DNA from: an uncultured Prevotellaceae bacterium
GTDB lineage: Bacteria; Bacteroidota; Bacteroidia; Bacteroidales; Bacteroidaceae
DNA: 64,000 nt
NCBI GenBank assembly: GCA_900315455.1
Contig: OMZE01000012.1
Coordinates: forward strand, 1-64,000
Direction of reading: 5' to 3'
A program made the translations under genes and the position numbers. Positions 6,117 through 62,737 of this stretch are shown here, piece by piece. The notes beneath the pieces are model-generated. The model saw nothing but the letters and a program-made list of their open reading frames with translations, did not search any database and had not been told where the DNA came from. Every line of letters starts with the position of its first letter. The first letter of the stretch is position 1.

Positions 6117-6132
6117 AAAAAAACAACCAAGA

Positions 6133-32781: not shown

Positions 32782-32804
32782 CACCCGATTTGCAGAATGC
32801 AAGT

Positions 32805-32875
32805 TAAGGGGTGCCCGATAGTTCGGGCTGAGATCATACCCTCATACCTGATCCGGGTAATGCCGGCGTAGGGAT
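32805..32875 (+). promoter_or_regulatory. TPP riboswitch (THI box)
   Basis: The core elements are all present in order: GGGGTGCCC, GGGCTGAGA (32824-32832), ACCCTCATACCTGATCCGGG spanning the 32839-32856 region, TAATGCCGGCGTAGGGA up to 32873. It binds thiamine pyrophosphate and normally represses thiamine genes. It lies about 50 nt ahead of the TonB receptor at 32924, so the receptor and pnuT are assigned to thiamine uptake. Confidence 0.95.
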
Positions 32876-32923
32876 TTCCGTTTTTCTCTCCCCCTTATCA
32901 TATTCATTATATTATAAGGTATT

Positions 32924-35296: not shown

Positions 35297-35299
35297 GCC

Positions 35300-35923
35300 A
35301 TGGACACCACATTCCTTGAGAGCCATTGGCTCGACATCACCACCACACTGCTGGGACTCGCCTATATCTTCCTGGAATACAAGGCGAGTATCTGGCTGTG
35401 GCTGGTGGGATTCGTCATGCAGGCTCTCGGCATCGTGCTCTATTACCAAAAGGGACTGTATGCCGACTGCGGCATGGAATGCTACTATATCGCGATGACT
35501 ATCTACGGATTCGTGAACTGGAAATTCTTCAAGGGGAGCAAAAATGCCACGAGCAAACAGGAACTGCCCGTCACCCACTTCAAACGCAGCCTCATCTTGC
35601 CTTGGACCATCGCAACGCTCGCTATCTGGGGGGCCATCTGGTGGTTGCTGGACACTCAAACCAACTCCACCGTGCCCGTGGCCGACAGTTTTACTACCGC
35701 ACTGAGTTTCGTGGGCATCTGGGCCCTTGCACGGAAATACCTTGAGCAATGGCTCATCTGGATAGTCGTCGATGTGGTGACCTGTGTGCTGTATGTATAC
35801 AAAGACATCCCGTTCAAGGCTGGCCTGTATGCCTTATACGTCGTCATCGCCATTTTTGGGTATGTGAAATGGCGAAAAATGATGAATATCCAGGATTCCA
35901 GCGACGTAAAAACTACTGTCTGA
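35300..35923 (+). CDS. pnuT: PnuT thiamine transporter (PnuC family)
   Basis: 207 residues with about seven hydrophobic helices; 'FLEYKASIWLWLVGFVMQALGIVLYY' type N-half and 'WLIWIVVDVVTCVLYVYKDIPFKAGLYALY' type C-half are the PnuC-family features (Trp/Asn-rich substrate path). The family carries uncharged vitamins across the inner membrane by facilitated diffusion. It starts 3 nt after the receptor and shares its TPP riboswitch, so thiamine is the expected substrate. The thiamine pyrophosphokinase that often follows in Bacteroides operons is not here. Confidence 0.9.
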   Translation: MDTTFLESHWLDITTTLLGLAYIFLEYKASIWLWLVGFVMQALGIVLYYQKGLYADCGMECYYIAMTIYGFVNWKFFKGSKNATSKQELPVTHFKRSLILPWTIATLAIWGAIWWLLDTQTNSTVPVADSFTTALSFVGIWALARKYLEQWLIWIVVDVVTCVLYVYKDIPFKAGLYALYVVIAIFGYVKWRKMMNIQDSSDVKTTV

Positions 35924-41523: not shown

Positions 41524-44076
41524 CTATCCACATTTTGAGTGACCACAGTTCTTGCAGATGAGGCATCCCTCCTGATAGACCAGCGTCTCGTTGCCACACT
41601 CAGGACATTTCTTTCCCTTAGCCACTGTGCCGTCGACAATGTATTTCTTGAGTGCCCTCTCCACACCATTCTTCCAGGTATTGATGCTCTCGCTCTTGAG
41701 TTGCAACGAACTGACCAATTTGATGACATGTTCGATGGGCATCCGGTAGCGCAGCACCCCCGAGATGAGTTTGGCGTAGTTCCAATACTCGGGGTTGAAT
41801 TTCTCGCTCAAGCCCTCCACCGTGGTTTTGTAGCCACGCTTGTTTTCAAACTGGAAGTCATAGCGGTGGCTGCCATCCTCGTTGGTCTGCTTGATGATTT
41901 TGCCCTTCGTCACTGTTTTTGGTAGAACGATACCCTCGTCGTCGTCCTGAAGACCGGTAAATATCTCATAGGGATAGCCATGGAGCAAGCCCACGAAAGC
42001 CACCCATTTCTCCTTGTTGTTCTGGAACCTCACCACGTCGCACTCAAGGACCTGTGGCCTCACCTCAGTGACCTCGGGGTGTACAGGACAGTTCTCTTCT
42101 GGTTTCGTCTCCTTCTTCTTTTTCTTGTCTACAGCCACCATCACACCAGCACGGCTGCCGTCGCGGTAGATGGTACAGCCCTTGCAGCCCGACCTCCATG
42201 CCTCGATATAGAGTTTGTTGACCAGTTCTTCATCCACGTTGTTGGGAAGGTTGACGGTCACGCTGATAGAATGGTCGACCCATTTCTGTATCCTGCCCTG
42301 CATCTTCACTTTCATCAACCAGTCTACGTCATTGGCAGTAGCCTTAAAATAGGGCGACCGTGCCACGAGTTGGTCGATTTCCTCCTGGCTGTAGCGCTGC
42401 TCGGTATCCAGTCCGTTGACCTTCATCCACTGGAGGAATTTGGGATGATAGACGATATACTCCTCGAAAGAATCGCCCACATCGTCGACGAAATCCACAT
42501 GTACGTTGGCATCGCCGGGGTTGACCTTGCGACGGCGTTTGTAGACCGGCATGAAGACAGGCTCTATGCCACTGGTGGTCTGCGTCATCAGGCTGGTGGT
42601 GCCTGTAGGTGCTATGGTAAGGCAAGCGATGTTGCGACGCCCATACTTCACCATATCGTCGTAAAGTTCGGGGGAAGCCTCCTTGATACGCCTCACAAAA
42701 GGATTGTTCTCCTCGCGCTTGGCATCGTAGATCTTGAAAGCCCCACGCTCCTTTGCCATCGTTACCGATGAGCCGTAAGCAGCGAGCGCCAGGGTGCGCT
42801 GCACCTCAACAGCGAAATCGGTGGCTTCCTCTGTACCATAGCGCAGTCCGAGTGCGGCTATCATATCACCTTCGGCAGTGATACCCACGCCGGTTCGCCT
42901 TCCAAGACCGCTCTTGTCGTAGATTTTTTCCCATAGGTGATACTCTGCGCCTTTCACCTCATCGCTCTGAGGATCGCTCTTCACCTTCGCCATGATGCCC
43001 TCGATTTTCTCCAGTTCCAGGTCTACGATATCGTCCATAATGCGCTGTGCGAGAGTCACATGCTTTTTGAACTTGGCGAAATCAAATTTCGCCTCGGCGG
43101 TGAAGGGGTTGTCGACATAAGAATAGAGGTTGATAGACAAGAGTCTGCAAGAATCATAGGGACAGAGCGGGATTTCCCCACACGGGTTGGTGGAGATGGT
43201 GCGGAAGCCGAGGTCGGCATAGCAGTCGGGGATGCTTTCACGGATGATGGTGTCCCAGAAGAGCACACCCGGCTCGGCACTTTTCCATGCATTGTGCACT
43301 ATCTTCGTCCACAGTTCTTTCGCGTCTATGGTCTTCTCAAACTCCGGCGTGGCGCTGTCTACGGGGAACTGCTGCACGTAGGGCTGGTTGTTGACCACGG
43401 CTTTCATGAAATCATCGTCGATGCGGACGGAGACATTGGCTCCTGTCACCTTCCCCTCGGTCATCTTCGCATCGATAAACGCCTCACTGTCAGGATGCTT
43501 GATGCTCACGGTGAGCATGAGGGCGCCACGGCGACCATCCTGAGCCACCTCACGGGTGGAATTGCTGTAACGCTCCATGAAGGGAACCAATCCGGTGCTG
43601 GTGAGGGCAGAATTGTTCACCGGCGAGCCTTTAGGCCGCAGGTGAGAGAGGTCGTGCCCCACTCCACCCCTTCGCTTCATGAGTTGCACCTGCTCTTGGT
43701 CGATGCGAAGCACTGCACCATAGGAGTCGGCATTGCCATCGAGTCCCACCACGAAACAGTTCGACAATGAAGCCACTTGATGGTTATTCCCTATTCCCGT
43801 CATCGGACTGCCGGCAGGCACCAGGTATCTGAAATGGTCGAGAAGCGTGAACACCTCCTCGGCCGAGAGGGGATTGGGATATTTGCTCTCTATGCGTGCT
43901 ATTTCGTTGGCGATACGCCAATGCATGTCTTCTGGCGACTTCTCGTAGATGTTGCCGAAACTGTCTTTCATGGCGTACTTATTCACCCATACACGCGCAG
44001 CGAGTTCATCGCCTGAGAAATATGCCAACGAAGCGGCATAGGCTTCGTCGTAGGAGTAGGTTTTCTGTTGACTCAT
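41524..44076 (-). CDS. nrdJ: Ribonucleoside-diphosphate reductase, adenosylcobalamin-dependent (class II)
   Basis: 850 residues. N-terminal 'SYDEAYAASLAYFSGDELAARVW' type sequence, 'QVASLSNCFVVG' with the active-site Cys, 'NPCGEIPLCPYDSC' with the radical-site Cys, and 'APTGTTSLM'. The C-terminus is a zinc-ribbon (CPECGNETL... CLICKNCG). This is the class II layout: reduction of ribonucleotides with adenosylcobalamin as radical source, independent of oxygen. No small subunit gene is adjacent. No cobalamin riboswitch was seen upstream. It ties this organism's DNA synthesis to B12, which the cluster 8 kb away makes or imports. Confidence 0.93.
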   Translation of the reverse strand: MSQQKTYSYDEAYAASLAYFSGDELAARVWVNKYAMKDSFGNIYEKSPEDMHWRIANEIARIESKYPNPLSAEEVFTLLDHFRYLVPAGSPMTGIGNNHQVASLSNCFVVGLDGNADSYGAVLRIDQEQVQLMKRRGGVGHDLSHLRPKGSPVNNSALTSTGLVPFMERYSNSTREVAQDGRRGALMLTVSIKHPDSEAFIDAKMTEGKVTGANVSVRIDDDFMKAVVNNQPYVQQFPVDSATPEFEKTIDAKELWTKIVHNAWKSAEPGVLFWDTIIRESIPDCYADLGFRTISTNPCGEIPLCPYDSCRLLSINLYSYVDNPFTAEAKFDFAKFKKHVTLAQRIMDDIVDLELEKIEGIMAKVKSDPQSDEVKGAEYHLWEKIYDKSGLGRRTGVGITAEGDMIAALGLRYGTEEATDFAVEVQRTLALAAYGSSVTMAKERGAFKIYDAKREENNPFVRRIKEASPELYDDMVKYGRRNIACLTIAPTGTTSLMTQTTSGIEPVFMPVYKRRRKVNPGDANVHVDFVDDVGDSFEEYIVYHPKFLQWMKVNGLDTEQRYSQEEIDQLVARSPYFKATANDVDWLMKVKMQGRIQKWVDHSISVTVNLPNNVDEELVNKLYIEAWRSGCKGCTIYRDGSRAGVMVAVDKKKKKETKPEENCPVHPEVTEVRPQVLECDVVRFQNNKEKWVAFVGLLHGYPYEIFTGLQDDDEGIVLPKTVTKGKIIKQTNEDGSHRYDFQFENKRGYKTTVEGLSEKFNPEYWNYAKLISGVLRYRMPIEHVIKLVSSLQLKSESINTWKNGVERALKKYIVDGTVAKGKKCPECGNETLVYQEGCLICKNCGHSKCG

Positions 44077-46226: not shown

Positions 46227-47255
46227 CTATCTTTGGCCATCATCTTCTTCATATTCTCTTATGGCGGCAACAAGCCAATCGTTCTCCTCTGATGATTGGG
46301 TGGAAACACGGAAATGACGGGGAGTAAGTCCTTGGAAATTTGAGGCGTCACGGATAAGGAGATGATGGTTCTTGGCCAAATAGTCTTTCAGAAGGGCTGC
46401 CGTTCCCTTTTCTGTCTCCGCCAAGAAAAAATGAGTATGGGTAGGATGGACAATGATACCTGGTATTTGGCTGAGCATACGGCCTAGCCGTTTGGTCTCA
46501 CCAAGGTAGGCTGAGAGCGAGGGGCAACCGCTGGCATCGTTTTCCATCAGCCATTTCCCCGCTTCTATCGCCAGCGTGTTGACCGACCATGGACGGATAT
46601 TTTCCCGGAGCAAATGGATGAGGTGACGGGGTGCCACAATATAGCCGACACGCAGTCCGGGGATAGCATATTTCTTGGTGAGCGAATGAATCTGAATGAT
46701 GTTGCTGGAATCTGCTGCCTCCTGATGCGTCATCATCGGTGCAAGGGTGAAGTCTTCATACGATTGGTCGATGACAATGATACCATATCTTTGTGCCAAC
46801 TTCTCCACCTCTTCCCGTGTATAGACATCACCAGTGGGGTTATTAGGGTTGCATACCCACCGCAGCACCGCTGAGGCCGGCACGCCGTCTTCTTCTCCCC
46901 CACTCCAACGAGTCAACCCTGCCATCCGGCAAGCATCTTCATATTCACAGAACGTGGGCCACTCGCCAATGCTGAAATGCGTGCTACCTTTGCGCGCAAA
47001 GGTCTGCGCGATGAGGTAAATGGCATCTGTAGCGCCATTGGTCACCAAGATGTTCTCTGCCGACACACCATATTTGTTAGCGATGGCCATTTCGAGTGAG
47101 CGGGGAGAAGGCTCGGGATAGTTGCCTATCAAATGAATGTGGCGGCACAAGTGCGTTTTCAGCGCTGTCATGTCGCTATGGGCGTAGATGTTGGAACTGA
47201 AATTGCACCGTATCTCGGGATAGTTGAAAAGGTCGTCTCCGTGGCCGTGTATCAT
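46227..47255 (-). CDS. cobD: Threonine-phosphate decarboxylase CobD (PLP-dependent)
   Basis: 342 residues, class I/II aminotransferase fold. The start 'MIHGHGDDLFNY' and 'NFSSNIYAHSD' are typical of CobD. 'VTNGATDAIYLIAQ' and 'CNPNNPTGDVYT' bind PLP and substrate, and Lys194 in 'HSLTKKYAIPGLRVG' should hold PLP. CobD makes (R)-1-amino-2-propanol phosphate from threonine phosphate for the nucleotide loop of B12. It is the last gene of the riboswitch-controlled minus-strand operon, 2 nt after the second receptor gene. A histidinol-phosphate-type aminotransferase is the alternative; context favours CobD. Confidence 0.85.
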   Translation of the reverse strand: MIHGHGDDLFNYPEIRCNFSSNIYAHSDMTALKTHLCRHIHLIGNYPEPSPRSLEMAIANKYGVSAENILVTNGATDAIYLIAQTFARKGSTHFSIGEWPTFCEYEDACRMAGLTRWSGGEEDGVPASAVLRWVCNPNNPTGDVYTREEVEKLAQRYGIIVIDQSYEDFTLAPMMTHQEAADSSNIIQIHSLTKKYAIPGLRVGYIVAPRHLIHLLRENIRPWSVNTLAIEAGKWLMENDASGCPSLSAYLGETKRLGRMLSQIPGIIVHPTHTHFFLAETEKGTAALLKDYLAKNHHLLIRDASNFQGLTPRHFRVSTQSSEENDWLVAAIREYEEDDGQR

Positions 47256-47257: not shown

Positions 47258-49339
47258 TTATTTCCTCAGTTTAAGTTTAAGTCCTACCACCACCATTCTC
47301 CCGGGGCTGTAGAGGGCATATTTCCGTTTCGAAGAGTCAACCCGCCGGTCCACCCGGTCGAAGATGTTCTCCACTCCCACACTGGGTTCCAGGGTGGCCC
47401 ATCCTAGACCGTCGAACGTATGCGTCGTGTGGATGTTCCACACCCCATATCCCGGAGCGTCTTCATCATCCGGATAATAAGTTTTCGACTGCAACCTTCC
47501 GTTCAGGTTCACATTCAGTCCGTATTTTCCCCACACATGGTGATAGTTGGCGGCAATGACTGCGGCATGCCGGATGCTGCGCTCGAGCACACGCCACTCT
47601 TCGCCACTCTTCGTTCGGGCATGGGTATATGCATAATTCAGAGAGAGGTTGAACCCACGGAAGAGATTGGCCGATACATTCACCTGCATTCCTTTCACGT
47701 CGCCTTTGTCGCTGTTCTGATAGAGCGCGTAATGCTCAAGTTTGGCAGCCTGGTCGTCGGTCATTTCCGGGAACTCCGTCCTCAACTTCGCTAATCCCGC
47801 GTCATCCACCGCCACATTGTTCTTCACCACCATGTCATTGATACGGTTCACGTATCCAGTGAGACTGACGGCAAGAAACTGTGTGCGGTATTCCGCGTTT
47901 AGGGAGAAGTAGTTGCTCTTCTCGGGAGAGAGCGTCTGGTTTCCGAAACTTATCTGTGCCTTTCCCCTGTTCACGGAGAAATAATGATAATAGAGTTCAT
48001 CGAGTCCAGGGGCCCGGAAGCCAGCCGAATAGGTGGCCCGCAGGCGGATATTCCCCGGTGCATACATCAGCGTGGCCTTAGGGGTGAGATGTTGTCCGAA
48101 AGTCTCGTGATGAGTGAGGCGTAGTCCGACGGTAGCCGTGAAGCGGTCGAGAAACTTCGCCTCGTGCTGCGCATAGGCAGCAATGGTATACACGTCTTTA
48201 TCGATATTCCCTGACGAGGCATTGAGTTTGTCATTGCGCCAGTCGGCACCGACGATGGTAGTGGAATTGGTGGTGAGCCCGAGGATGGCTTTCACCTCGC
48301 CTTCCATCGACCGCTGTTTCTTCGACTGCACATAGTCGCCCACCTCATAGTCTTTCGTTGCCACATCATATTCCTTGCCGTAGCGGAAGCGGTCGATGGT
48401 GAAATCGGCCTGCAGGGAATTTCTGGAGGAAAACTTGAGAATTCCTCCCACATTCCAACGCAGGCCTCTATAGTGCATCTCATAATCGAGTCCTCCTGCA
48501 ACGTCGGGGCGGGTGTCGGGACGGTCGGTCATCTTGTCGGAGTAGTTCACCCCTGCATTCAGTGCCACGCGCCCATTGGGCGAGAAGGTGAATGTTTGTC
48601 CTACGACATTGGAGTGATAACCAGTGAAGAAAGGCGAGACAGTCTGCTGAGTCTCCGTTTCCGACCCCTTCACCAATTCTAAGTCGTTGTTGCGGTAACT
48701 ATCGGCCCTGTCGTGAGCGAACGAGGTGTATGAACCGAAGCCGTGGCTGAAGATATCGAGCGTCACGTTCTCGGTGAACTGTCCTTTTCCCGACACCTTT
48801 GTATCGGAGGTTATATTGAAAAGATTTTGTGTTGGTTGGTCGGTAATGATGTTGATGACACCTGCGATGGCATCGCTGCCGTAGAGCGATGAAGCCGCCC
48901 CGTCGAGCACCTCGATGCGTTTCACCCTTGCCATGTTGATGCGGTTGAGGTCGACATTATTGGAGATGTCACCAGAGAGTTTCTGTCCGTTTACCAAGAT
49001 GAGGACATACTTGTTGCCCAAGCCGTTCATGCGCAGGAATGTCCCCATCGAGTTGGGTGCCATCGACACCTGCGGCATCATCCGCTGTATGGCGGCATCA
49101 AAGGTGGTAATGCCCTGTTCGGCAATCTCTCTGCTGGAGAGCACGTGCACGGGAGTAGCCGTCGACTTCAGCCGTTGATGGTGCCCCGACCCCGTCACCA
49201 CCACAGGATTGAGGTTATGGGTTTGGCCAGCCATCGACGAGTCGCGCCGTTCCGTCTGGTGTATCTGCGCGAAAGTGGCACTCCCCGAAAGGAGTGCCAC
49301 TATGAGGATAAGTGTTTTCTTGTTCTGCAACGATGCCAT
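47258..49339 (-). CDS. TonB-dependent receptor (B12 locus, second receptor)
   Basis: 693 residues. Signal peptide (MASLQNKKTLILIVALLSGSATFAQ), TonB-box-like 'LNPVVVTGSG', plug ('MPQVSMAPNSMGTFLRMNGLGNKYV' type, 'KRIEVLDGAASSLYGSDAIAGVINII') and barrel. It contains 'GFRAPGLDELYY' and 'NQTLSPEKS', the FRAP/NPxL-like pair seen in haem and cobalamin receptors. Its ATG overlaps the chelatase stop (TAATG at 49341-49337), so the two are translationally coupled. Under the cobalamin riboswitch, a corrinoid or related tetrapyrrole is the likely cargo. Confidence 0.88.
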   Translation of the reverse strand: MASLQNKKTLILIVALLSGSATFAQIHQTERRDSSMAGQTHNLNPVVVTGSGHHQRLKSTATPVHVLSSREIAEQGITTFDAAIQRMMPQVSMAPNSMGTFLRMNGLGNKYVLILVNGQKLSGDISNNVDLNRINMARVKRIEVLDGAASSLYGSDAIAGVINIITDQPTQNLFNITSDTKVSGKGQFTENVTLDIFSHGFGSYTSFAHDRADSYRNNDLELVKGSETETQQTVSPFFTGYHSNVVGQTFTFSPNGRVALNAGVNYSDKMTDRPDTRPDVAGGLDYEMHYRGLRWNVGGILKFSSRNSLQADFTIDRFRYGKEYDVATKDYEVGDYVQSKKQRSMEGEVKAILGLTTNSTTIVGADWRNDKLNASSGNIDKDVYTIAAYAQHEAKFLDRFTATVGLRLTHHETFGQHLTPKATLMYAPGNIRLRATYSAGFRAPGLDELYYHYFSVNRGKAQISFGNQTLSPEKSNYFSLNAEYRTQFLAVSLTGYVNRINDMVVKNNVAVDDAGLAKLRTEFPEMTDDQAAKLEHYALYQNSDKGDVKGMQVNVSANLFRGFNLSLNYAYTHARTKSGEEWRVLERSIRHAAVIAANYHHVWGKYGLNVNLNGRLQSKTYYPDDEDAPGYGVWNIHTTHTFDGLGWATLEPSVGVENIFDRVDRRVDSSKRKYALYSPGRMVVVGLKLKLRK

Positions 49340-50436
49340 TACTCTTCAGGATTCTTGGAGTGATAGTAGTCGAGAGGCTCGCCGTTGATAGCATCCTTGG
49401 TATGGTTCATCCAAACCTGACGGATGGAAGGCCATTCGAGCAGACCTTTCTCTACCATCGTGGAGTTGTCGCAACTGTATCCCATATGGCTGAAGAACAT
49501 CTTCCAACTGGTGTCTTCCACTTCGCCTTCTTTGTTGAGTTTGAATCCATTGTCCCATGCATCATCGTCACCAGCCATGTCATTGTGCCCATGGTCGCCG
49601 TCGATAGACATCAGTGGAACACAATACACCGTGCCGCTCATGATGCCGTTGGCCTGCATGCGCTGCAGCACATGGGTCTTGAAATTATGCATCATGTCCA
49701 CGGTGCCCACATAGTAGTTCTTGCTATACTGCTGAAGGGCCTTCTCAAGTTGGGTATAGCGAACGTTGGCCTTGTAGGTGTCGTAGGAGTCGGGGTTGCC
49801 ATGTCCCATGAAAGTCACGATGCCGTCTTTTGCGATGGAGGCGAAGAGCGTGTGGAGTTGCGAGGCCACCTCGTTCACATCGCTTTCAGCATCTTGCAAC
49901 AGGGGCACACCGAGTTTCAGTGTTACATTTGCCAGGTACTTGTCATCAATATCGCCATTGGCGTTGTTGGCGAAGTCCTTGATGTAGTTGATGACGCGGG
50001 TGTATTCCTCACCGGGGATGACCTGCAGCGACTGCACCACAATCTCACTGTATTTCACTCCGTCCTGGGCAAAAGCATTGAGCCAGAATGGAGGAGCGTA
50101 GAAGTTGCGTGACTTCACGTTCTCACCGGCAGCAGCACGGTTGATGCAAATGGCGGATGAGAAAGAGAGGAACACGTCGTAGCCGGGGAATGCTGCCTTG
50201 TAGGCATCCACGGTAGCATCGAAGGCATCGTATGCCTGCTGCCATGTAGAACCGAAGGCAACGAGGAGGATGACCTTTGAGTTCTTCTTCTGCGACTTCA
50301 CCGTCTTGTTGACGGCATTTTGGTAAATGATGTAGTTGTTTTCTTTGGCATCATCATCATCATCACTACATGCTGTGAAGTTCATTGCTCCACAAATTGC
50401 CATGATGGCAATCATCAAATACTTAATTTTCTTCAT
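49339..50436 (-). CDS. CbiK-like cobaltochelatase, lipoprotein with surface-export signal
   Basis: 365 residues. A lipoprotein signal ends at Cys23 (AICGAMNFTAC) and is followed at once by S-D-D-D-D-D, the surface-export signal described for Bacteroides lipoproteins. The mature part is a class II chelatase: 'KVILLVAFGSTW', the catalytic-type His212 in 'TFMGHGNPDSY' and His282 in 'DGDHGHNDMAGDDD', matching the two His of CbiK. CbiK inserts cobalt into sirohydrochlorin. An export form exists in Desulfovibrio, and P. gingivalis has the CbiK-like haem lipoprotein IhtB. Here it overlaps both flanking receptor genes by 14 and 1 nt. Confidence 0.88.
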   Translation of the reverse strand: MKKIKYLMIAIMAICGAMNFTACSDDDDDAKENNYIIYQNAVNKTVKSQKKNSKVILLVAFGSTWQQAYDAFDATVDAYKAAFPGYDVFLSFSSAICINRAAAGENVKSRNFYAPPFWLNAFAQDGVKYSEIVVQSLQVIPGEEYTRVINYIKDFANNANGDIDDKYLANVTLKLGVPLLQDAESDVNEVASQLHTLFASIAKDGIVTFMGHGNPDSYDTYKANVRYTQLEKALQQYSKNYYVGTVDMMHNFKTHVLQRMQANGIMSGTVYCVPLMSIDGDHGHNDMAGDDDAWDNGFKLNKEGEVEDTSWKMFFSHMGYSCDNSTMVEKGLLEWPSIRQVWMNHTKDAINGEPLDYYHSKNPEE

Positions 50437-52561
50437 TGTCTCTTGTGTTTAAGTTGGACTTGTAGTTATTCTTGAGTTTCTTTCCTTTGTTGAAGCGGAT
50501 GCCGAACGACACGTAGAAAGTGCGTCCGGGCGTAGTGGTACCGAGATGCAGTCCATGAGGGGTGCGGTCGGCATAGTCGAAGATATTGTCGACACCCGCC
50601 TCCACGTGGTAGGCCATGGTCTTTGAGTGGCCAAGGTCGTGTGTGGTAGACAAACGCCATATCTGGTAGCCTTTGCCGTCACCGTCGATCTGGTAGTAGC
50701 GTTTGGTGGAGAAACGGCAGTACACACCTACGCCAAGGCGGTAGTCGGACGAGAAAGCGTGGTTCCATGTGGCGAATGCATTGCCTTTGTGGTGTGCCAT
50801 GCCGTCGATGGTCACCTCGTTCATCCTGTCGTGCGTCGTGTCATACTGGTTGGCCTTGGTGTCCAAGTAACTGTAGCCGCCTCCGACGGCTATTTCCTTC
50901 CATGTGTATCGCACATTCACATCCACGCCATAGGTCTTGGCATCCTCGATGTTCTGATACTGCCGTGTCTTCACTGGGTCGTACAATACGATATACTCGT
51001 CGGGAGCCTGATAATTGGGGATGGTGACAAGGGCTATCATATTATCCACCTTGTTATAGTAAGCAGATACCGTCACGCTGAGTCCTTGCCAGGTGTATTC
51101 ACCACTTACGCTATAATAGTTGCTGGTCTGGGGATTGAGTTGGGTATTGCCCAAATAGAGATAGGTGCCGCTCATCTGCCGCACATAGCGGTAGTAGAGT
51201 TCTTTGGTGGTAGGTGTCTTGAACCCCTGGCTCCATGTGGCGCGCAGCCGCCATGGATGCCCGATTTTCCACATGGCAGACACCTTCGGCGTGAGCCGTG
51301 TACCGAACTGCTCGTTCTGGTTGAGGCGCAGGCCGGCAGTGATATTGATGTTACGGATAAGGTTGAACTCATCCTGTACGTACAACGCTCCCGTCCAGTC
51401 GCTCACCCTTCCCCCTTCCACGCGGTTGGGTGCATCGAGCCAGTCGTAGCGGTATTCCATACCTGCGCTCAGTCTGTTTTCGTAGGGCAGTTCAAACACC
51501 CCTTTCAGATGAGCCATTGTGCGTTGCTGGTCGCTCTGCAACTCTTCCTGACCGGGGAGATAAGGGAAATAAGGGTAATACATCGTCCCTTTGCTCTTTT
51601 CGTAATCCTCCACCAGGGTGTTAGCCGTGAAGTAATAATAGTAAGCATGGCGGTTCCAGTCGATGTCGAGCGTGATGTGGTCGGTTTTGTTCAGTTTCCA
51701 TTTGCCGCCCACCGAGGCCGACGCATTGCGGTATTTCATGTCGTAGGTCTTCACGTCATAATGGGCGTACTTGCCGCTCGTCCGGTAGATACGTTTCCAG
51801 TAGACGCTCCCCTCGGCATAAAGTTCAAGGTCTTTCGTCGGTGTGTAGGTCAGCCGTTCCGACACCTGCCAGTTGGTATGGCGGTTGACGGTCTTGTTGC
51901 GGGAGTCGGTAATGGGAGGTTCCGAACCTTCAGTATGTTCAACTGCCGTGTTCTGCCATCCGTCGGAATGCTGCAGTTGGAAATTCGTGTATGAACTGAG
52001 TTTGCCAAAGTTCAGGGCGATACCATTGTGCTGGCGGATGTCGCCGTAACTGCCCACCCGGCTGGTGTTCTCCAGCAGGATGCCGTCCTTGTCGTGCCGT
52101 TTCGTGATGATGTTCACCACCCCTGCGATGGCATCCGAGCCATAAAGGGCGCTCGACGCACCTTTCACCACCTCTATCTTCTCTATGTTCAGCGGGTCGA
52201 TGAGCGAGAGGTCGTTCTGTCCCCCCACGTCACCATGGATGCGCTTTCCGTCGATGAGTATGAGGATATAACTGTTGCCGAGACCATTCATCTGCATCTG
52301 CGACCCCATGTCGTCTTCGTTGAAGGCGAAGGAAGGCAACAGGCCCGACAAGATGTCCTCGATGCTCTTTCCGGCGTATTGGCGCAGCATCTTTCCGGTG
52401 ATGACCTCGGTCTGCACAGGAGCATCCTTCAGGAAGTGCTGTGTTCCTGTGCCGGTGACCACAATCTCCTGCAGGCTGTCTGTGCGCCAGATATCACTCT
52501 GCGCCCAAGCAGCCACGAAAGAACATAATGCCAGCAAGGTTGCTGTCAGTTTTCGTGTCAT
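50423..52561 (-). CDS. TonB-dependent receptor (B12 locus, first receptor)
   Basis: 712 residues from the ATG at 52561 (MTRKLTATLLALCSFVAAWAQ); the frame extends to 52588. TonB-box-like 'LQEIVVTGTG', plug with 'MQMNGLGNSYILILIDGKRIHG' type sequence and 'EKIEVVKGASSALYGSDAIAGVVNIIT', then a full barrel ending in 'TFYVSFGIRFN'. It is the first gene after the cobalamin riboswitch, so corrinoid uptake (BtuB role) is the best guess. Its end overlaps the chelatase gene by 14 nt. Both receptors belong to the short BtuB/HmuR-like class rather than SusC. Confidence 0.9.
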   Translation of the reverse strand: MTRKLTATLLALCSFVAAWAQSDIWRTDSLQEIVVTGTGTQHFLKDAPVQTEVITGKMLRQYAGKSIEDILSGLLPSFAFNEDDMGSQMQMNGLGNSYILILIDGKRIHGDVGGQNDLSLIDPLNIEKIEVVKGASSALYGSDAIAGVVNIITKRHDKDGILLENTSRVGSYGDIRQHNGIALNFGKLSSYTNFQLQHSDGWQNTAVEHTEGSEPPITDSRNKTVNRHTNWQVSERLTYTPTKDLELYAEGSVYWKRIYRTSGKYAHYDVKTYDMKYRNASASVGGKWKLNKTDHITLDIDWNRHAYYYYFTANTLVEDYEKSKGTMYYPYFPYLPGQEELQSDQQRTMAHLKGVFELPYENRLSAGMEYRYDWLDAPNRVEGGRVSDWTGALYVQDEFNLIRNINITAGLRLNQNEQFGTRLTPKVSAMWKIGHPWRLRATWSQGFKTPTTKELYYRYVRQMSGTYLYLGNTQLNPQTSNYYSVSGEYTWQGLSVTVSAYYNKVDNMIALVTIPNYQAPDEYIVLYDPVKTRQYQNIEDAKTYGVDVNVRYTWKEIAVGGGYSYLDTKANQYDTTHDRMNEVTIDGMAHHKGNAFATWNHAFSSDYRLGVGVYCRFSTKRYYQIDGDGKGYQIWRLSTTHDLGHSKTMAYHVEAGVDNIFDYADRTPHGLHLGTTTPGRTFYVSFGIRFNKGKKLKNNYKSNLNTRDNEEN

Positions 52562-52615
52562 TACAAATTTGATTTTACGCCTACGCATCTTCCTGTACGG
52601 GCGTCGTTATCTTTG

Positions 52616-52777
52616 AGGCAGGTCTTCTGACTTTCCCCAGTCTGCCTTACCTTCCCGGCTCCTTGCCAGTGGCGTTATACAAACAAACCTCCTTAATGGG
52701 GATTACAGCAGCAGGAACTGTCCTGGACTCTCACCAGGTTCCCTTACATCGCGGTGGCATCAGCCACCCGATTGCCT
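52616..52777 (-). promoter_or_regulatory. Cobalamin riboswitch (B12 element)
   Basis: Read on the minus strand: closing stem AGGCA (52777-52773) with TGCCT (52620-52616); GGTGGC..GCCACC; GGGAACCTGGTGAGAGTCC; the B12-box GCTGCTGTAATCC-like stretch near 52700; GCCACTGG; and AAAGTCAGAAGACCTGCC at the 3' end. All conserved blocks are present. It controls the receptor-chelatase-receptor-cobD operon that starts 55 nt downstream. A minus-strand TATTTTTG (52795-52788) may be its promoter -7 box. Confidence 0.95.
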
Positions 52778-52836
52778 AATTCGTGTGCAAAAATACAACA
52801 TTTTTGCGAAACCGCTCTAAATAGGATATTTTTTTT

Positions 52837-52844: not shown

Positions 52845-52891
52845 CACCAACTAAACCGACTTTTGAGCCAATGCAACCGACAAATGAGCCA

Positions 52892-54142
52892 ATGAAGCCA
52901 TGTTTTATGATAGCGGCACCCATGAGCGGCTCGGGCAAGACAACCATTGCCCGGGGACTGATGGCTTTGTATGCCTCGAGAGGGATGGCCGTGCAGCCAT
53001 TCAAGTGCGGTCCCGACTATATCGACACGAAATTCCATGCGTCGGTTTGCGGCAGACCCAGCATCAACCTCGACACGTTCATGGCCACCCCTGAGCACGT
53101 GTGCCAACTCTTCGTGCGCTATGGAGCCAATGCCGACATCAGCATCGTGGAAGGTATGATGGGACTGTTCGATGGTTACGACCGCGACCGTGGGTCTTCG
53201 TCGGAGATAGCACGCCTACTCGGTCTGCCCGTGGTGCTCGTTGTCGACGCCCGTTCGGCAGCCTACTCCATGGCGGCATTGTTGTCGGGCTTCATCCATT
53301 TCAGGGAAGATGTCCATATCGCGGGCGTAATATTCAATAAGGTGAGTTCAGCGCGTCATTACAAGATGCTCACCCAGGTGTGCGACGATCTCGGCATCAC
53401 GAGTTTCGGCTACCTGCCCAAATCCGATGCCCTGGAGCAACAGTCGCGGTATTTGGGTTTGGACTTCTCAGATACAGCCATGCCCCATCAGTTGGTGAGT
53501 CTGCTTGAGAGCCATGTCGACTGGGAGGGCTTACGCTCCCTTTGCCCTACCGCCCCCATCAGCCACGGTGCTGCCTATGCCCGGCGCGACACTCCCCGCT
53601 TGGTCGTGGCCCGCAACGAAGAGTCGTTTTCCTTCATTTACCAAGAGGCGCTCGATGCCTTTCAACATGTGGTGTCTTTCGACCCCGAGACAGAAGCGCC
53701 CTCCCTTGCCGAAGGAGACCTACTATACCTGCCGGGAGGATATCCGGAGAAGCATCTTGAGGCACTGACCAAAAATGAGGCGGCAATGACCGCCATCCGC
53801 CTTTTTGCGGAGCACGGAGGGAGGGTTGTTGCCGAATGCGGCGGCATGATGTATCTCTGCAAGAGCATCGTAGACGACACGGGTGAATATCCCATGTGTG
53901 GCGTGCTTCCCTACAGCATTACGGCAAGGAAGCAAGACCGCAAACTCTCATTGGGCTACCGGCGTTTCATGCTCGACGGCAAGGAATATCGCGGACATGA
54001 GTTCCACTACACGCAATTCCTCGGGATGCCTCCCGAAAGCATCACACAGGTTTACAATGCCAAAGGCGAGCCCGTCGACACCCCCCTATTCAGATACAAG
54101 AACGTACTGGCCAGTTACACCCATTTGTACCATCTACTATGA
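52892..54142 (+). CDS. cbiA: Cobyrinate a,c-diamide synthase
   Basis: 416 residues from the ATG at 52892 (MKPCFMIAAPMSGSGKTT). Other ATGs in frame are at 52871 and 52907; the frame opens at 52754 inside the riboswitch and cannot start there. The N-terminal P-loop domain has GSGKTT, 'FKCGPDYIDTKFH' and 'EGMMGLFDG'. The C-terminal glutamine amidotransferase has the nucleophile Cys in 'VVAECGGMMYLC'. It amidates the a and c side chains of cobyrinic acid with ATP and glutamine. First gene of the plus-strand operon; overlaps cbiP by ATGA. Confidence 0.95.
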   Translation: MKPCFMIAAPMSGSGKTTIARGLMALYASRGMAVQPFKCGPDYIDTKFHASVCGRPSINLDTFMATPEHVCQLFVRYGANADISIVEGMMGLFDGYDRDRGSSSEIARLLGLPVVLVVDARSAAYSMAALLSGFIHFREDVHIAGVIFNKVSSARHYKMLTQVCDDLGITSFGYLPKSDALEQQSRYLGLDFSDTAMPHQLVSLLESHVDWEGLRSLCPTAPISHGAAYARRDTPRLVVARNEESFSFIYQEALDAFQHVVSFDPETEAPSLAEGDLLYLPGGYPEKHLEALTKNEAAMTAIRLFAEHGGRVVAECGGMMYLCKSIVDDTGEYPMCGVLPYSITARKQDRKLSLGYRRFMLDGKEYRGHEFHYTQFLGMPPESITQVYNAKGEPVDTPLFRYKNVLASYTHLYHLL

Positions 54143-55611
54143 AACAACTCCATCCCATCATGTTTGCCGGCACTGGTAGCGACGTAGGCAAGAGCATCCT
54201 TGCCGCCGCCTTCTGCCGTATTTTCAAGCAGGATGGCTACCATCCCGCCCCCTTCAAGGCCCAGAACATGGCACTCAACTCCTTTGCCACCCCCGAGGGA
54301 CTGGAGATAGGAAGGGCTCAGGCGGTGCAAGCCGAGGCGGCGGGCATCCCCTGCCACACCGACATGAACCCCCTGTTGCTGAAGCCCCAATCCGACCACA
54401 CCTCACAGGTGGTGCTCAACGGAAAGCCCATCGGCAACAAGAACGCCTATGACTATTGGCGAAGGGGGGCTTCCGACATAGATTTCCGGAAGGAGGTGTG
54501 CGCTGCCTTTGACCGTCTGGCAGACCAATACAACCCCATTGTCATGGAGGGTGCCGGAAGCATTTCAGAAATCAATCTCAGAGACAGAGACCTCGTCAAC
54601 ATGTCGATGGCACGCCATGCCAAAGCCGATGTCATCCTTGTGGGCGACATCGACAGGGGTGGTGTCTTCGCCTCCGTCTATGGCAGCATCGCCTTGCAGA
54701 CTCCTGAGAACAGGCAACTCATCAAGGGCATCATCATCAACAAGTTTCGTGGCGACATGAAACTGTTTGACGAGGGCCGCCGCATGATGGAGGAACTCTG
54801 CGGCATTCCCGTCCTTGGTGTCGTGCCCTATTTCAAAGATATCCACATCGAGGAAGAAGACAGCGTGGCCCTGGCACAGAAATCCATGGCCATGGAACGC
54901 GGCAAGGTGAACATTGCCGTGGTGATGCTGCAGCACCTCTCCAACTACACCGACTTCGACTCGCTGGAACAAGACCCACGCGTGCACCTCTTTTACACCA
55001 ATAATGTTGACGACCTGGGAAAAGCCGACATCATCATTCTGCCCGGCACGAAGTCGACCCTCCACGACCTGTATGAACTGCGCCGAAACGGTTGCGCCCA
55101 AGCCATCGTCAAAGCCCACCGAGGCGGCACCTCCGTCCTTGGCATCTGTGGCGGCTATCAACTGATGGGCATAGAGGTTTGCGACCCTGACCATGTGGAG
55201 GGCGATATCGACCGCTTGCCCGGACTGGGGCTGCTGCCCATCACCACCAATATGCATGGTGAGAAGACGACAAGGCAAGTGACATGTGAGTTTGGCCGTG
55301 GGTATGAGATACACATGGGCGAGACCTTGCCTTTCGGTGATGCGAAGCCCTCGCCGCTGCTCCATCTCAGCGACGGCAGAGACGACGGTTATATGGTCGA
55401 CGGGAAATGTATGGGCACCTATGTGCACGGTATTCTGGACAACTCGTCCTTTGTCGATTTCCTGCTCACGCCCTTTACAGAGAAAATCAAGCAGGCAGGC
55501 ACCCCCTTCGACTACCCTGCCTTCAAGGAAGAACAATACGACAAACTTGCCCTTCATGTGCGCCAACATACAGACATGAAAAAGATATACCAAATACTGA
55601 CCGATGACTAA
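54139..55611 (+). CDS. cbiP: Cobyric acid synthase
   Basis: 490 residues. N-terminal 'IMFAGTGSDVGKSILAAAFCR' (P-loop), 'FKAQNMALNSFAT' and 'EGAGSISEINL'. The C-terminal amidotransferase has 'VLGICGGYQLMG' with the nucleophile Cys and 'YVHGILDN' with the catalytic His. It amidates the b, d, e and g side chains of adenosylcobyrinate diamide. Length is normal. Overlaps cbiA (4 nt) and cbiB (8 nt), which implies translational coupling. Confidence 0.97.
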   Translation: MKQLHPIMFAGTGSDVGKSILAAAFCRIFKQDGYHPAPFKAQNMALNSFATPEGLEIGRAQAVQAEAAGIPCHTDMNPLLLKPQSDHTSQVVLNGKPIGNKNAYDYWRRGASDIDFRKEVCAAFDRLADQYNPIVMEGAGSISEINLRDRDLVNMSMARHAKADVILVGDIDRGGVFASVYGSIALQTPENRQLIKGIIINKFRGDMKLFDEGRRMMEELCGIPVLGVVPYFKDIHIEEEDSVALAQKSMAMERGKVNIAVVMLQHLSNYTDFDSLEQDPRVHLFYTNNVDDLGKADIIILPGTKSTLHDLYELRRNGCAQAIVKAHRGGTSVLGICGGYQLMGIEVCDPDHVEGDIDRLPGLGLLPITTNMHGEKTTRQVTCEFGRGYEIHMGETLPFGDAKPSPLLHLSDGRDDGYMVDGKCMGTYVHGILDNSSFVDFLLTPFTEKIKQAGTPFDYPAFKEEQYDKLALHVRQHTDMKKIYQILTDD

Positions 55612-56536
55612 CGCCCTTTCGCTCCTTGCCGGCTGGTTGCTCGACCTCGTGTTGGGAGACCCTCAGCGGTTGCCACATCCCGTAGTGGGGTTTGGCAAGA
55701 TGATTGCCTTTGGCGAGCATCGGCTCAACCATGGGCAGCATCGCAAGATGAAAGGCGCATTGATGGCCATCATTCTCATCATCGTGGTGTTTCTCTGTGG
55801 ATGGCTCATCCGCCGTCTCCTTTCTCTGGCAAGTGTATATCTTGCTGTCGGTTTCGACATCATCGTGGTGTTCTATTGTCTGGCTGGCACCACGCTTATC
55901 CGTGAGGTGCGTGCCGTATTCATCGCCCTCGACCGCTCCTTGGAAGACGGCCGCCGGCAGGTGGCACGCATCGTGGGACGCGACACCTCGGAACTGTCGG
56001 CACAGGAGGTGCGGGCAGCAGCCCTTGAGACCCTTGCCGAGAACCTGAGCGACGGTGTGACGGCACCATTGTTCTGGCTTGCCATTGGCGGCACGCCGGG
56101 GATGCTCGCCTACAAGATGGTGAATACGCTCGACTCCATGATAGGCTACCGCACGGAGCGTTACAAGGACTTTGGCTGTTGGGCAGCCCGTATCGACGAT
56201 GTGGCCAACTATATCCCCGCGCGTCTTACTGCCCTGCTGATGGTCATCGCTTCCGGAAGAATACGTTTGCTCTCTTTTGTCGCCAAATATGGCAGAAACC
56301 ATGCCAGTCCGAACAGCGGCTATCCCGAAGCAGCCCTTGCCGGCATTCTCGACTGCCGTTTCGGAGGCCCGCACTACTATTTCGGCGAACTCTTCGACAA
56401 GCCCTATATCGGCGAGCACGAGCGCCAGTTCATCACCGCTGACATGGAAAAGGCTGTCCGCATCAACCGTTTCGCAGAGGTGATGATGGTGGCATTGACC
56501 ACCCTCGCCCTATATCTCATACCATCTATCCCATAA
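55604..56536 (+). CDS. cbiB: Adenosylcobinamide-phosphate synthase CbiB
   Basis: 310 residues, an inner-membrane protein with about four to five helices. The family start 'LLAGWLLDLVLGDPQRLPHPVVGFG' type is clear; 'RDTSELSAQEVRAAALETLAENLSDGV' type and 'PGMLAYKMVNTLDSMIGY' follow. It attaches aminopropanol phosphate (the CobD product) to adenosylcobyric acid. The partner cobD lies in the divergent operon. A 12-nt gap separates it from the next gene. Confidence 0.96.
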   Translation: MTNALSLLAGWLLDLVLGDPQRLPHPVVGFGKMIAFGEHRLNHGQHRKMKGALMAIILIIVVFLCGWLIRRLLSLASVYLAVGFDIIVVFYCLAGTTLIREVRAVFIALDRSLEDGRRQVARIVGRDTSELSAQEVRAAALETLAENLSDGVTAPLFWLAIGGTPGMLAYKMVNTLDSMIGYRTERYKDFGCWAARIDDVANYIPARLTALLMVIASGRIRLLSFVAKYGRNHASPNSGYPEAALAGILDCRFGGPHYYFGELFDKPYIGEHERQFITADMEKAVRINRFAEVMMVALTTLALYLIPSIP

Positions 56537-56548: not shown

Positions 56549-57949
56549 ATGAAGAAAATCATCATTGCAGGCATCGGACCAGGCAGCAGCGAAGATATCA
56601 CGCCCGCCGTGGTCGAAGCACTCCGACAGGCAGACGCTGTCGTGGGCTATCAGTATTATTTCCAATTCATCAAGCCTTTGCTGCGCGATGGCTGCGAGTG
56701 CGTGGACACAGGCATGAAGAAGGAGCGCGAGCGCGCCGAACAGGCATTCGAACTGGCCCAGCAAGGGAAGACCGTGGTGGTCATCTCTTCTGGCGACGCA
56801 GGTATCTACGGCATGACGCCTCTGGTGTATGAGATGGCCCGCGAGAAGAAGTCGCAGGTACAGATAGAGTCGCTACCCGGCATCTCTGCGTTTCAGAAGG
56901 CTGCGTCGCTTTTAGGAGCCCCCATCGGTCACGACATGTGCCTCATCTCGCTCAGCGACCTGCTGACACCCTGGGAGGTGATAGAGCAACGCATCAAAGC
57001 CGCAGCCGCTGGCGATTTCGTCACCGCCATCTACAATCCGAAGTCGCACGGCCGCTACTGGCAACTCTACCGTTTGCAAGAACTGTTTCTGAAATGGCGC
57101 TCACCTCTGACTCCCATAGGCTATGTGCGGCAGGCGGGGCGAGAGGAGCAAGAGGTAAAGGTCACTACTCTTGGTGATTTTGACCCGGAGGATGTAGATA
57201 TGTTCACCGTCGTTCTCATCGGCAACTCACAATCCTATATCAGCGAGGGCAAAATCATCACGCCCAGAGGGTATTATGCACAGGAGAAGGACGATGACGT
57301 GAAACCCGGACAGCAGATCATGATGGACTCCTTCCGTACCATTGCGGGCGAGTTGCATAACAAGGACTTGCCCCTCGGCCACAAATGGGCACTGCTCCAC
57401 GCCATCCACACCACCGCCGATTTTGAGATGGAAAGATTGCTGAATACTGATGAACACGCGGTGGAAAACCTGTTTCAAAAAGTGAAGAAGGGCGAACTCA
57501 AGACTATCATCACCGATGTGACGATGGTGGTGAGCGGCATACGTAAAGGAGCCTTGTCGCGCCTTGGCATGGAAGCCAAATGCTACCTCAGCGACCCCCG
57601 AGTGGCAGAGATGGCGGCCACTCAAGGCATCACCCGAACCCAGGCCGGCATACGGCTGGCCGTGGAAGAGCATCCCGATGCCCTGTTCGCTTTCGGCAAC
57701 GCCCCCACAGCACTGATGGAACTATGTGCCCTGATACGCAAGGGCAAGGCATGCCCCGCCGGCATCATCGCCGCACCCGTAGGTTTCGTCCACGTGAGAG
57801 AGTCGAAACACATGGTCAAGCCATTCAGGGACATTCCCAAAATCATCGTCGAAGGCCGCAAGGGCGGCAGCAATCTGGCAGCCACTCTTTGCAATGCCAT
57901 CCTGACGTTTGATGATGCCGAACAACTCAAGCCAGGGAGGGATTTATGA
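56549..57949 (+). CDS. Fusion: precorrin-3B/cobalt-factor III C17-methyltransferase + precorrin-8X methylmutase (CbiHC)
   Basis: 466 residues. Residues 1 to about 240 are a tetrapyrrole methyltransferase ('IIIAGIGPGSSEDITP', 'ISSGDAGIYGM', 'LPGISAFQKAAS', 'FVTAIYNPKSHGRYW'), the CbiH/CobJ ring-contraction methyltransferase. From about 255 on it is CbiC/CobH: 'DSFRTIAGEL', the conserved His in 'LLHAIHTTADFEM', 'GNAPTALMEL' and 'GFVHVRESK'. CbiC moves the C11 methyl to C12. Two steps of the corrin ring pathway are thus on one chain. Overlaps the next gene by ATGA. Confidence 0.93.
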   Translation: MKKIIIAGIGPGSSEDITPAVVEALRQADAVVGYQYYFQFIKPLLRDGCECVDTGMKKERERAEQAFELAQQGKTVVVISSGDAGIYGMTPLVYEMAREKKSQVQIESLPGISAFQKAASLLGAPIGHDMCLISLSDLLTPWEVIEQRIKAAAAGDFVTAIYNPKSHGRYWQLYRLQELFLKWRSPLTPIGYVRQAGREEQEVKVTTLGDFDPEDVDMFTVVLIGNSQSYISEGKIITPRGYYAQEKDDDVKPGQQIMMDSFRTIAGELHNKDLPLGHKWALLHAIHTTADFEMERLLNTDEHAVENLFQKVKKGELKTIITDVTMVVSGIRKGALSRLGMEAKCYLSDPRVAEMAATQGITRTQAGIRLAVEEHPDALFAFGNAPTALMELCALIRKGKACPAGIIAAPVGFVHVRESKHMVKPFRDIPKIIVEGRKGGSNLAATLCNAILTFDDAEQLKPGRDL

Positions 57950-59163
57950 AGTTTACAGTCATTGGTATCACAGATGCGCCACAACCGTTTTTCCCACCAG
58001 AGGTAAAGGGAATCATTGACGATGGCCGTGTCTTCTCGGGAGGCAAGCGGCACCATGAAATCATGGCTCCGCTATTGCCTGAAGGGGCTCAGTGGATTGA
58101 TATCACGGCACCCATCGATGCTGTCTTTGAGCAATATGCGCATCATGATGGCCATATCATCGTCTTTGCCTCCGGCGACCCCCTCTTCTTCGGATTCGCC
58201 AATACCATCAAGCGCAAACTGCCTGAAGCAGACGTGGTGCTCTATCCCTCGTTCAATTCTTTGCAGATATTGGCCCACCGCCTGGTGATGCCCTATCACG
58301 ACCTGCGTGTGGTGTCGCTCACTGGGCGTCCCTGGCCCGCATTCGACCAGGCCTTGATAGAGCGCACCCGAAAAATCGGTGTGCTCACCGACCGTGAGCA
58401 CACGCCTGCCACCATTGCCCAGCGGATGCTCGACTATGGTTACAACTACTACACGATGCACGTGGGTGTGCATCTCGGCAACCCTACGCGTGAACAAGTG
58501 GTGTCTCTGACGCTTGAAGAGGCTACCCGCAAGGTATTCGACCATCCCAACTGCCTCATCTTATCAGCGGGAGAAATGCCACCTGCGCGCCCTTTCGGCC
58601 TCCCCGACCAACAGTTCGACTTACTCAACAACCGGGAGAAAATGATTACGAAGATGCCCATCCGCCTGCTCACGCTGCAAGCCCTCGGGCTGTCAGCAAG
58701 ACACGTCTTTTGGGACATTGGCTTCTGCACAGGCAGCGTATCTATCGAAGCCCGGCTGCAGTTTCCCCACCTGCAGGTGGTGGCCTTTGAGATACGCCGG
58801 GAATGCGAAGAACTGATTTGCCACAACAGCCGCCGATTCGGCACGCCGGGAATCGACGTGCATATCGGAGACTTCCTGCAAACCGACACGGCACACCTGC
58901 TCCGCCCCGATGCCGTGTTCATCGGTGGCCATGGCGGCAGACTGAAGGAAATCATGGCCAAGGTGCATCAGGTGTTGCAGCCTGGCGGCTGCATCGTCAC
59001 CAACAGCGTCTCCTCCGCTGTCGTACAACAGATGACCGACCGAAGAAGCAGCAAGGACCTGTTTCATGAGGCTTGCCAGGAACTCGGTCTGAGAGAGGCG
59101 CTTCCCACCCATATACAACTCAACGACTACAACCCCATAGACATACTGAAATGCGTAAAATAG
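57946..59163 (+). CDS. cobL: Fusion: precorrin-6Y C5,15-methyltransferase, decarboxylating (CbiET/CobL)
   Basis: 405 residues. N-terminal half CbiE ('VFASGDPLFFGFANTI', 'YPSFNSLQILAHRL'), C-terminal half CbiT with the SAM motif 'FWDIGFCTGSVSIEARLQFP' from about residue 258 and 'VFIGGHGGRLKEIM'. It methylates C5 and C15 and removes the acetate carboxyl at C12. The fusion is the common CobL form. The next gene starts 13 nt before its stop. Confidence 0.95.
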   Translation: MKFTVIGITDAPQPFFPPEVKGIIDDGRVFSGGKRHHEIMAPLLPEGAQWIDITAPIDAVFEQYAHHDGHIIVFASGDPLFFGFANTIKRKLPEADVVLYPSFNSLQILAHRLVMPYHDLRVVSLTGRPWPAFDQALIERTRKIGVLTDREHTPATIAQRMLDYGYNYYTMHVGVHLGNPTREQVVSLTLEEATRKVFDHPNCLILSAGEMPPARPFGLPDQQFDLLNNREKMITKMPIRLLTLQALGLSARHVFWDIGFCTGSVSIEARLQFPHLQVVAFEIRRECEELICHNSRRFGTPGIDVHIGDFLQTDTAHLLRPDAVFIGGHGGRLKEIMAKVHQVLQPGGCIVTNSVSSAVVQQMTDRRSSKDLFHEACQELGLREALPTHIQLNDYNPIDILKCVK

Positions 59164-62722: not shown

Positions 62723-62737
62723 GAAAAAGCCTTATTC
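62717..62737. terminator. Short inverted repeat across the convergent stop codons
   Basis: GAATAAG (62717-62723) and CTTATTC (62731-62737) flank AAAAAGC. The stops of cbiJD (+) and btuC (-) both fall within it. The 7-bp stem is short, so terminator function is uncertain. Confidence 0.45.

Follow-up and report, generated by a model that had tools for sequence, protein, structure and literature searches.

We describe a putative import system for an early precursor of the vitamin B12 ring, encoded in a 64,000-nucleotide stretch of contig OMZE01000012.1 from an uncultured Prevotellaceae bacterium (the window). At its centre is a gene for a type A CbiK-family class II chelatase (positions 49339-50436, minus strand, 365 amino acids (aa)) that carries lipoprotein export signals and adjoins the gene for a TonB-dependent receptor, TBDT1 (50423-52588, minus strand). 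We consider it probable that this CbiK-fold surface lipoprotein and TBDT1 together import an early ring precursor into a cell that is unable to make one. The proposal draws on which genes are present and how they are arranged, on the export-signal sequence and the predicted fold, and on conservation and phylogenetic profile; the ligand, the insertion of cobalt, the position at the cell surface and the hand-over to the receptor are parts of it that we infer from these sequence data.

An export-signal-bearing chelatase in a receptor operon

The N-terminus of the chelatase reads MKKIKYLMIAIMAICGAMNFTAC23-SDDDDDA, with a lipobox at Cys23, as an earlier sequence-only reading of this region had it. 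The lipoprotein signal peptide, lipobox and SDDDD export-signal-like residues occupy codons 1-28 (50353-50436, minus strand) and are kept in relatives. The polar residue and acidic run after the lipobox cysteine (C-SDDDDD) form a signal of the lipoprotein-export-signal (LES) type, and the earlier assignment of this motif as a Bacteroides surface-export signal agrees with the B. fragilis consensus, SDDDD (PMC5080379). The same reading had recognized an intact chelatase with histidines 212 and 282, and this holds: the protein matches PF06180 (CbiK) at 146.1 bits against a gathering score of 26.2 (E=1.6e-42) over residues 54-350 and profile positions 1-261 of 262, and H212 (within MGHG) and H282 (within GDHxHND) are invariant in two alignments of 25 and 29 sequences, the window protein included. 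They line up with the conserved histidine motifs of CbiK, where H145 and H207 of the Salmonella enzyme are metal or tetrapyrrole histidines (PMC4063343). With the NCBIfam equivalog model for sirohydrochlorin cobaltochelatase CbiK (NF047852), the window protein scores 107.7 bits, below the curated cut-off of 400, as does the type B protein tested (219.9 bits). Position 247, an aspartate that presumably serves as an acidic metal ligand of the chelatase, is aligned with a glutamate in FetB.

The structure model shows an alpha/beta protein; its highest-scoring matches among solved structures (VIA-align) are CbiK, FetB, SirB and ferrochelatases. No beta-propeller appears in the match list, an absence that on its own rules nothing out. 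We conclude that the window chelatase is probably exported and, in prediction, surface-exposed. The cytosolic location of a Salmonella-type CbiK is at odds with its predicted signal peptide and lipobox, kept as they are in relatives.

The gene belongs to a minus-strand unit (52794-46227) that comprises a cobalamin riboswitch, TBDT1, the CbiK lipoprotein, a second TonB-dependent receptor (TBDT2, 47258-49339) and a CobD-like threonine-phosphate decarboxylase or aminotransferase (46227-47255). The riboswitch matches the covariance model RF00174 at 52600-52794 with 74.6 bits against a gathering score of 31.5 (E=1.5e-16), and both receptors have Pfam Plug and barrel matches. The CobD-like protein matches PF00155, and its best NCBIfam model, TIGR01140, gives 247.3 bits, under the cut-off of 290.55. 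TBDT1 overlaps the chelatase gene by 14 nucleotides and the chelatase gene overlaps that of TBDT2 by one (TAATG); both overlaps, and the riboswitch at the head of the operon, had been described correctly from the sequence.

The sequence-only reading had proposed looking for this gene order in other Bacteroidales, and there it recurs. We assembled 81 loci, the window and the best 80 of 521 related stretches from a scan of genome contigs, which come from Prevotellaceae, Bacteroidaceae, Muribaculaceae, Porphyromonadaceae and other Bacteroidales metagenome-assembled genomes, many of them from rumen samples. A TonB receptor gene lies directly upstream of the chelatase in 75 loci, with an overlap of exactly 14 nucleotides in 70; of the other six, L135 and L140 start at or near a contig end, and in L137, L154, L156 and L168 the start of the open reading frame (ORF) is called over-long. 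A riboswitch-like element, defined by an nhmmer profile from nine Rfam-detected riboswitches and not by a covariance model, is found upstream in 72 of the 81; eight of the nine loci without it have less than 2.2 kb of upstream DNA, and the ninth, L160, has about 3 kb. Scanned with Rfam itself, all seven relatives have a cobalamin riboswitch upstream of the receptor-chelatase unit. The lipobox pattern matched 80 loci, all of which have two or more acidic residues among the five that follow the cysteine, and the one locus it missed (L169) reads ACSNDDD.

Within the loci of the family surveyed below, a TBDT1-type gene lies upstream of 42 of 46 A-type ORFs, a count that includes divergent lipoproteins and second copies. 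Of the 39 ORFs for which 2.6 kb or more of upstream sequence is available, 38 have the riboswitch-like element. The two locus sets overlap and are not independent; L047 and L160, for instance, are contigs of equal length and identical gene order. A phylogeny of 41 receptors, taken from 26 selected loci among those fetched, unites all 20 receptors directly upstream of a lipoprotein chelatase in one clade (support 100/99; one very long branch lies outside it), which speaks for a fixed partnership between TBDT1 and the lipoprotein chelatase. TBDT2 falls outside this clade, groups with receptors beside type B chelatases and may carry a different precursor. The arrangement of the receptor-chelatase unit is more than chance. 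The sequence-only reading had suspected a form not previously described, and our searches of open-licence PubMed Central papers, a collection outside which most subscription papers lie, brought up no account of a receptor and CbiK lipoprotein paired in this way behind a B12 riboswitch.

Tetrapyrrole and corrin gene content across the family

The genome that contains the window (G000; 100% complete, 8% contamination) has a single CbiK, the window lipoprotein. Searches of it gave no CbiX, CobN, HemB or HemC, no CbiL (TIGR01467 at E≤1e-20, the search used over all genomes) and no SUMT over the cut-off. Its tetrapyrrole methylases are CbiH, CbiE, CbiF and RsmI, a fifth match (E=0.09) containing a stop, and the corrin genes from CbiH through CbiA are encoded in the window. 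The sole recognized cobaltochelatase homologue of this genome is thus one with predicted export signals. As the tested steps that make and C20-methylate sirohydrochlorin are missing, a precursor of that level would have to come from outside. The earlier remark that a cytosolic sirohydrochlorin would not reach the protein is sound, yet a precursor from outside could do so at the predicted location. CbiL converts cobalt-factor II to cobalt-factor III, on which CbiH acts next (PMC7242693). Because CbiH and all that follows are kept, the earlier tested steps are gone and the one chelatase appears exported, the compound with which synthesis begins would be an imported one, equivalent in stage to the CbiH substrate.

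Several candidates for the missing functions were rejected. Searches for a cytosolic cobaltochelatase elsewhere in G000 (CbiK, CbiX, CobN) gave none, the full-length methylase that might have been a missed CbiL is RsmI, and none of the window proteins has a best match that would indicate a CbiL fused into CbiHC, CbiET, CbiGF or CbiJD.

The family survey covers 151 genomes, G000 included. HemB occurs in 4, HemC in 5, SUMT over the cut-off in 4, CbiC in 55, CbiK in 56 and CbiL in 21; HemB is missing from 147 genomes and occurs in none of the 55 with CbiC. CbiK and CbiC are found together in 52 genomes, CbiK only in 4, CbiC only in 3 and neither in 92, a strong association when phylogeny is ignored (Fisher 7e-32). 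CbiX matches occur in 19 genomes, in 18 of which they coincide with type B CbiK; G028 has a separate CbiX, and G032 one further weak match. CbiM is over the cut-off in 0 of the 151 genomes, with two weak matches; this absence fits cobalt insertion outside the cell, weakly, as CbiM is missing from nearly the whole family. On this gene content, the ring-makers of the family appear dependent on outside tetrapyrrole. Precursor salvage has already been named for tetrapyrrole-dependent corrin pathways, and P. gingivalis has a corrin pathway without the steps to precorrin-2 (PMC6461909).

The CbiK proteins were sorted into type A lipoproteins (40 genomes), divergent lipoproteins (6), type B proteins, which have a signal peptide and by eye no lipobox (18), and a degenerate group (9). 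Two kinds occur side by side in some genomes, and G150 has a fragment only. By eye, an export signal is present in every type A or B protein whose start was read. The histidines of the H212/H282 type are kept in aligned types A and B and lost in three homologues outside B12 clusters. By sequence, the closest solved relative of type A is FetB, and that of the tested type B is Salmonella CbiK (E=1.6e-42).

Type A occurs with CbiC in 38 of 40 genomes and never with HemB; in the two without CbiC (G083, G030), the clusters run into contig ends where sister genomes have cbiH-cbiC, and so appear truncated. It is absent from 94 of the 96 CbiC-negative genomes, nearly all of which also lack HemB. CbiL is found in 0 of the 33 genomes in which type A is the only active-looking type (CbiC was detected in 31 of these) and in 15 of the 17 CbiC genomes with type B (Fisher 6e-11). 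Genomes with divergent lipoproteins only have it in three of four cases (G002, G016 and G091; not G062), which gives 3 of 37 for all lipoprotein-only genomes (Fisher against type B 1e-8); both tests ignore phylogeny. When 12 type-A-only genomes were scanned for the whole methylase family, the matches fitted CbiH, CbiE, CbiF and an RsmI-sized protein, plus three extra matches at E 0.09-0.27. In genus g2, type B and CbiL are both missing from G090 and both present in G001, G031 and G054; in genus g13, G126 has type B with CbiL, and G062, which lacks CbiL, has a divergent lipoprotein. In L032, L033, L067, L068 and L094, cbiL and a lipoprotein chelatase gene share one gene string.

Lipoprotein (type A or divergent) and CbiC lie on different contigs or more than 30 kb apart in 12 of the 44 genomes that have both, and 338 kb apart in the single-contig genome G009; several of the 12 have short contigs with possible breaks. 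Given this separation, the link between the two genes does not stem entirely from their loss together with a single cluster.

The degenerate CbiK-like group (genera g14 and g19, with a signal peptide) was set apart; both histidines are gone from the three of its members that were aligned. Near its five flanked loci (L081-L085) there was no cbi or receptor match, and L081, L083, L085 and similar loci hold signal-peptide CbiK-like proteins outside B12 clusters. In G150, a relative from the genus that lacks CbiC, the short fragment (L071 8150-8353) is what remains of a type B-like chelatase and may be the trace of a decayed pathway.

Mechanism, ligand and competing explanations

B12 makers presumably release factor II and factor III under low cobalt. 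We envisage that other microbes would release a metal-free or cobalt-bearing isobacteriochlorin, and that the lipoprotein would bind this precursor at the outer face. Into a metal-free precursor, cobalt would probably be inserted outside the cell with H212, H282 and perhaps D247, and the cobalt-tetrapyrrole would then be handed to TBDT1. Passage through the inner membrane would fall to components of the BtuFC type, and in the cytosol CbiH, F, G, D, J, T, E, C and A would complete the ring. The cobalamin riboswitch would turn import off when B12 is plentiful. As the type-A-only genomes lack CbiL, the precursor is most likely of the factor III level, already methylated at C20, and we tentatively name factor III itself as the imported ligand, an assignment that is quite possible and well short of assured. 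The type B signal-peptide chelatase, found with CbiL, would serve sirohydrochlorin (factor II). A still more tentative proposal is that cobalt insertion has moved outside the cell altogether, so that a surface factor III cobaltochelatase with its own TonB receptor serves cells without HemB, HemC, SUMT and CbiL, and a second exported type serves sirohydrochlorin in relatives that keep CbiL.

Several points weigh against precursor import or against factor III as its ligand. Binding, cobalt insertion and surface exposure of the window chelatase are predictions from sequence, its nearest solved relative by sequence, FetB, is named as haem-binding, and release of factor II or III by neighbours is not reported in the text covered of the open-licence PubMed Central papers that a search for it brought up. 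G037 is a CbiC genome that has HemC and SUMT but no HemB. G058, G076 and G094 have CbiC and CbiL without a CbiK, CbiX or HemB match, G003 has type B without CbiC, and G073 and G106 (genus g2; 87% and 72% complete) have type B without CbiL. As divergent lipoproteins occur with CbiL, being a lipoprotein does not as such mean factor III; if G002, G016 and G091 are put with type B post hoc, the tally becomes 18 of 20 against 0 of 34. A non-homologous replacement of CbiL may exist. Lipoprotein and CbiC are no more than 30 kb apart in 32 of 44 genomes, so that joint gain and loss adds to their association. The argument from CbiM absence is weakened by other predicted cobalt transporters tabulated for Bacteroidetes (PMC2667541).

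G037 contains a 684-aa open frame matching HemC and SUMT (C49, ~5348-6673), and this organism is perhaps a porphobilinogen salvager. An alternative chelatase beside cbiL was sought by eye in G058, G094 and G076, where the neighbours look like an epimerase gene and other unrelated genes.

A variant of precursor import differs only in its ligand, taken to be sirohydrochlorin (factor II), with an unrecognized enzyme replacing CbiL in C20 methylation. CbiK enzymes act on sirohydrochlorin (PMC7242693), the fold and histidines here are those of CbiK, and divergent lipoproteins occur with CbiL in three of four genomes. We nevertheless think this ligand unlikely, given that CbiL is missing from all 33 type-A-only genomes, that the 12-genome methylase scan fits known family members apart from its three weak matches, and that the clusters inspected contain no extra methyltransferase. 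The protein might instead capture finished corrinoids (cobalamin, cobinamide) for a BtuB-type receptor in the manner of BtuG, its chelatase fold serving as a binding lid. The B12 riboswitch would suit such a role, as would the pairing of a receptor with a surface lipoprotein, which is the arrangement of known corrinoid systems: in Bacteroides, BtuB-BtuG consists of a TonB receptor and a surface lipoprotein under B12 control. The window receptors do match BtuB, though they match the colicin I receptor more strongly. BtuG is a beta-propeller, whereas the protein here is predicted to have a chelatase fold and co-occurs with ring synthesis genes. Additionally, capture of finished corrinoids leaves the invariant histidines unexplained and would place type A in the genomes that need imported corrinoids most, the cbiC-negative ones, from 94 of 96 of which it is missing; we judge it improbable.

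Haem or iron acquisition, in which iron is removed from haem at the surface as proposed for P. gingivalis IhtB/FetB, seems to us highly improbable. FetB/IhtB (PDB 9b86) shares the CbiK fold and is the nearest solved relative by sequence, and IhtB is a lipoprotein of a TonB receptor system (PMC10913741). It is named as haem-binding, belongs to a haem/iron system and (FetB) has Glu in place of Asp247; the window unit, in contrast, stands behind a B12 riboswitch and among B12 genes, with a corrin pathway whose first half is missing. A cobalamin riboswitch at the head of the operon does not fit haem uptake, and type A follows CbiC in a family in which 147 of 151 genomes are without HemB. In B. fragilis, cbiK disruption left haem-iron use unaffected (authors' unpublished data cited in PMC6460266, the chelatase subtype unassigned). 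The sequence-only reading had proposed B12-controlled scavenging at the surface: the exported chelatase beside a TonB receptor and the B12 riboswitch stand, and its finished corrinoid or haem ligand is less supported, as type A tracks cbiC and is missing from nearly all cbiC-negative relatives.

Other known chelatases offer a comparison. Salmonella CbiK is cytosolic. The S. enterica enzyme (PDB 1qgo) has the fold and both histidines in common with the window protein; however, it is a sirohydrochlorin cobaltochelatase, and the protein closest to it is the tested type B, not that of the window. CbiKP of Desulfovibrio vulgaris (PDB 2xvx) is a soluble periplasmic protein that exists beside a second CbiK in the same organism, and we know of no receptor partner for it. 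PMC12654859 cites a paper whose title names two functional CbiK. The tetrapyrrole precursor salvagers of PMC6461909 likewise have a corrin pathway without early steps; the text of that paper covered here gives no uptake machinery, whereas the window unit is a candidate for such machinery, with entry predicted at factor III.

Neighbouring genes and biological meaning

Divergent from the receptor operon, a plus-strand gene string encodes most of the corrin pathway. Profile matches identify CbiA (cobyrinic acid a,c-diamide synthase, 52886-54142), CobQ/CbiP (cobyric acid synthase, 54139-55611) and CbiB (55604-56536). These are followed by a CbiH-CbiC fusion (56549-57949; TIGR01466 328.6 bits, PF02570), whose CbiH part is the first ring enzyme found, and by fusions of CbiE-CbiT (57946-59163; TIGR02467, TIGR02469), CbiG-CbiF (59073-60932; TIGR01465 343.6 bits and cobalt-precorrin 5A hydrolase models; its true start may be further in) and CbiJ-CbiD (60929-62722; TIGR00312 335.7 bits and cobalt-precorrin-6A reductase models). 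On the minus strand, a BtuC-like permease of the FecCD family follows (62732-63766; profile matches). Just past the window end are a gene for a BtuF-like binding protein and a second cobalamin riboswitch (L072 2467-2656, minus strand; contig ~64966-65155), which leads btuF and btuC; by eye, no ATPase gene was recognized among the adjoining ORFs. A B12 consumer, the adenosylcobalamin-dependent ribonucleotide reductase NrdJ, is encoded near the cluster (41524-44076, minus strand; TIGR02504 577.3 bits). Separately, positions 32797-35923 (plus strand) hold a thiamine pyrophosphate (TPP) riboswitch followed by genes for a 790-aa TonB receptor-like protein (by eye) and a PnuC-family transporter, perhaps a thiamine uptake unit.

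These observations indicate that some gut and rumen bacteria that are apparently unable to make the starting ring of B12 carry an enzyme of a cobalt-inserting type, predicted to lie outside the cell, beside an import channel. This suggests that a half-made B12 ring is picked up from neighbours, that cobalt is handled outside and that the product is then imported. B12 synthesis in Porphyromonas gingivalis was reportedly called an enigma in the title of a paper of 2000. In the large gut and rumen family surveyed here, none of the 55 ring-making genomes has HemB, and a CbiK-family protein is encoded in 52 of them. If the proposal is true, an uptake route for early B12 precursors exists, its ligand (factor III or factor II) can be named from gene content, and direct tests of B12 cross-feeding through half-made rings become possible. 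The role of FetB/IhtB would then also be worth a second look.

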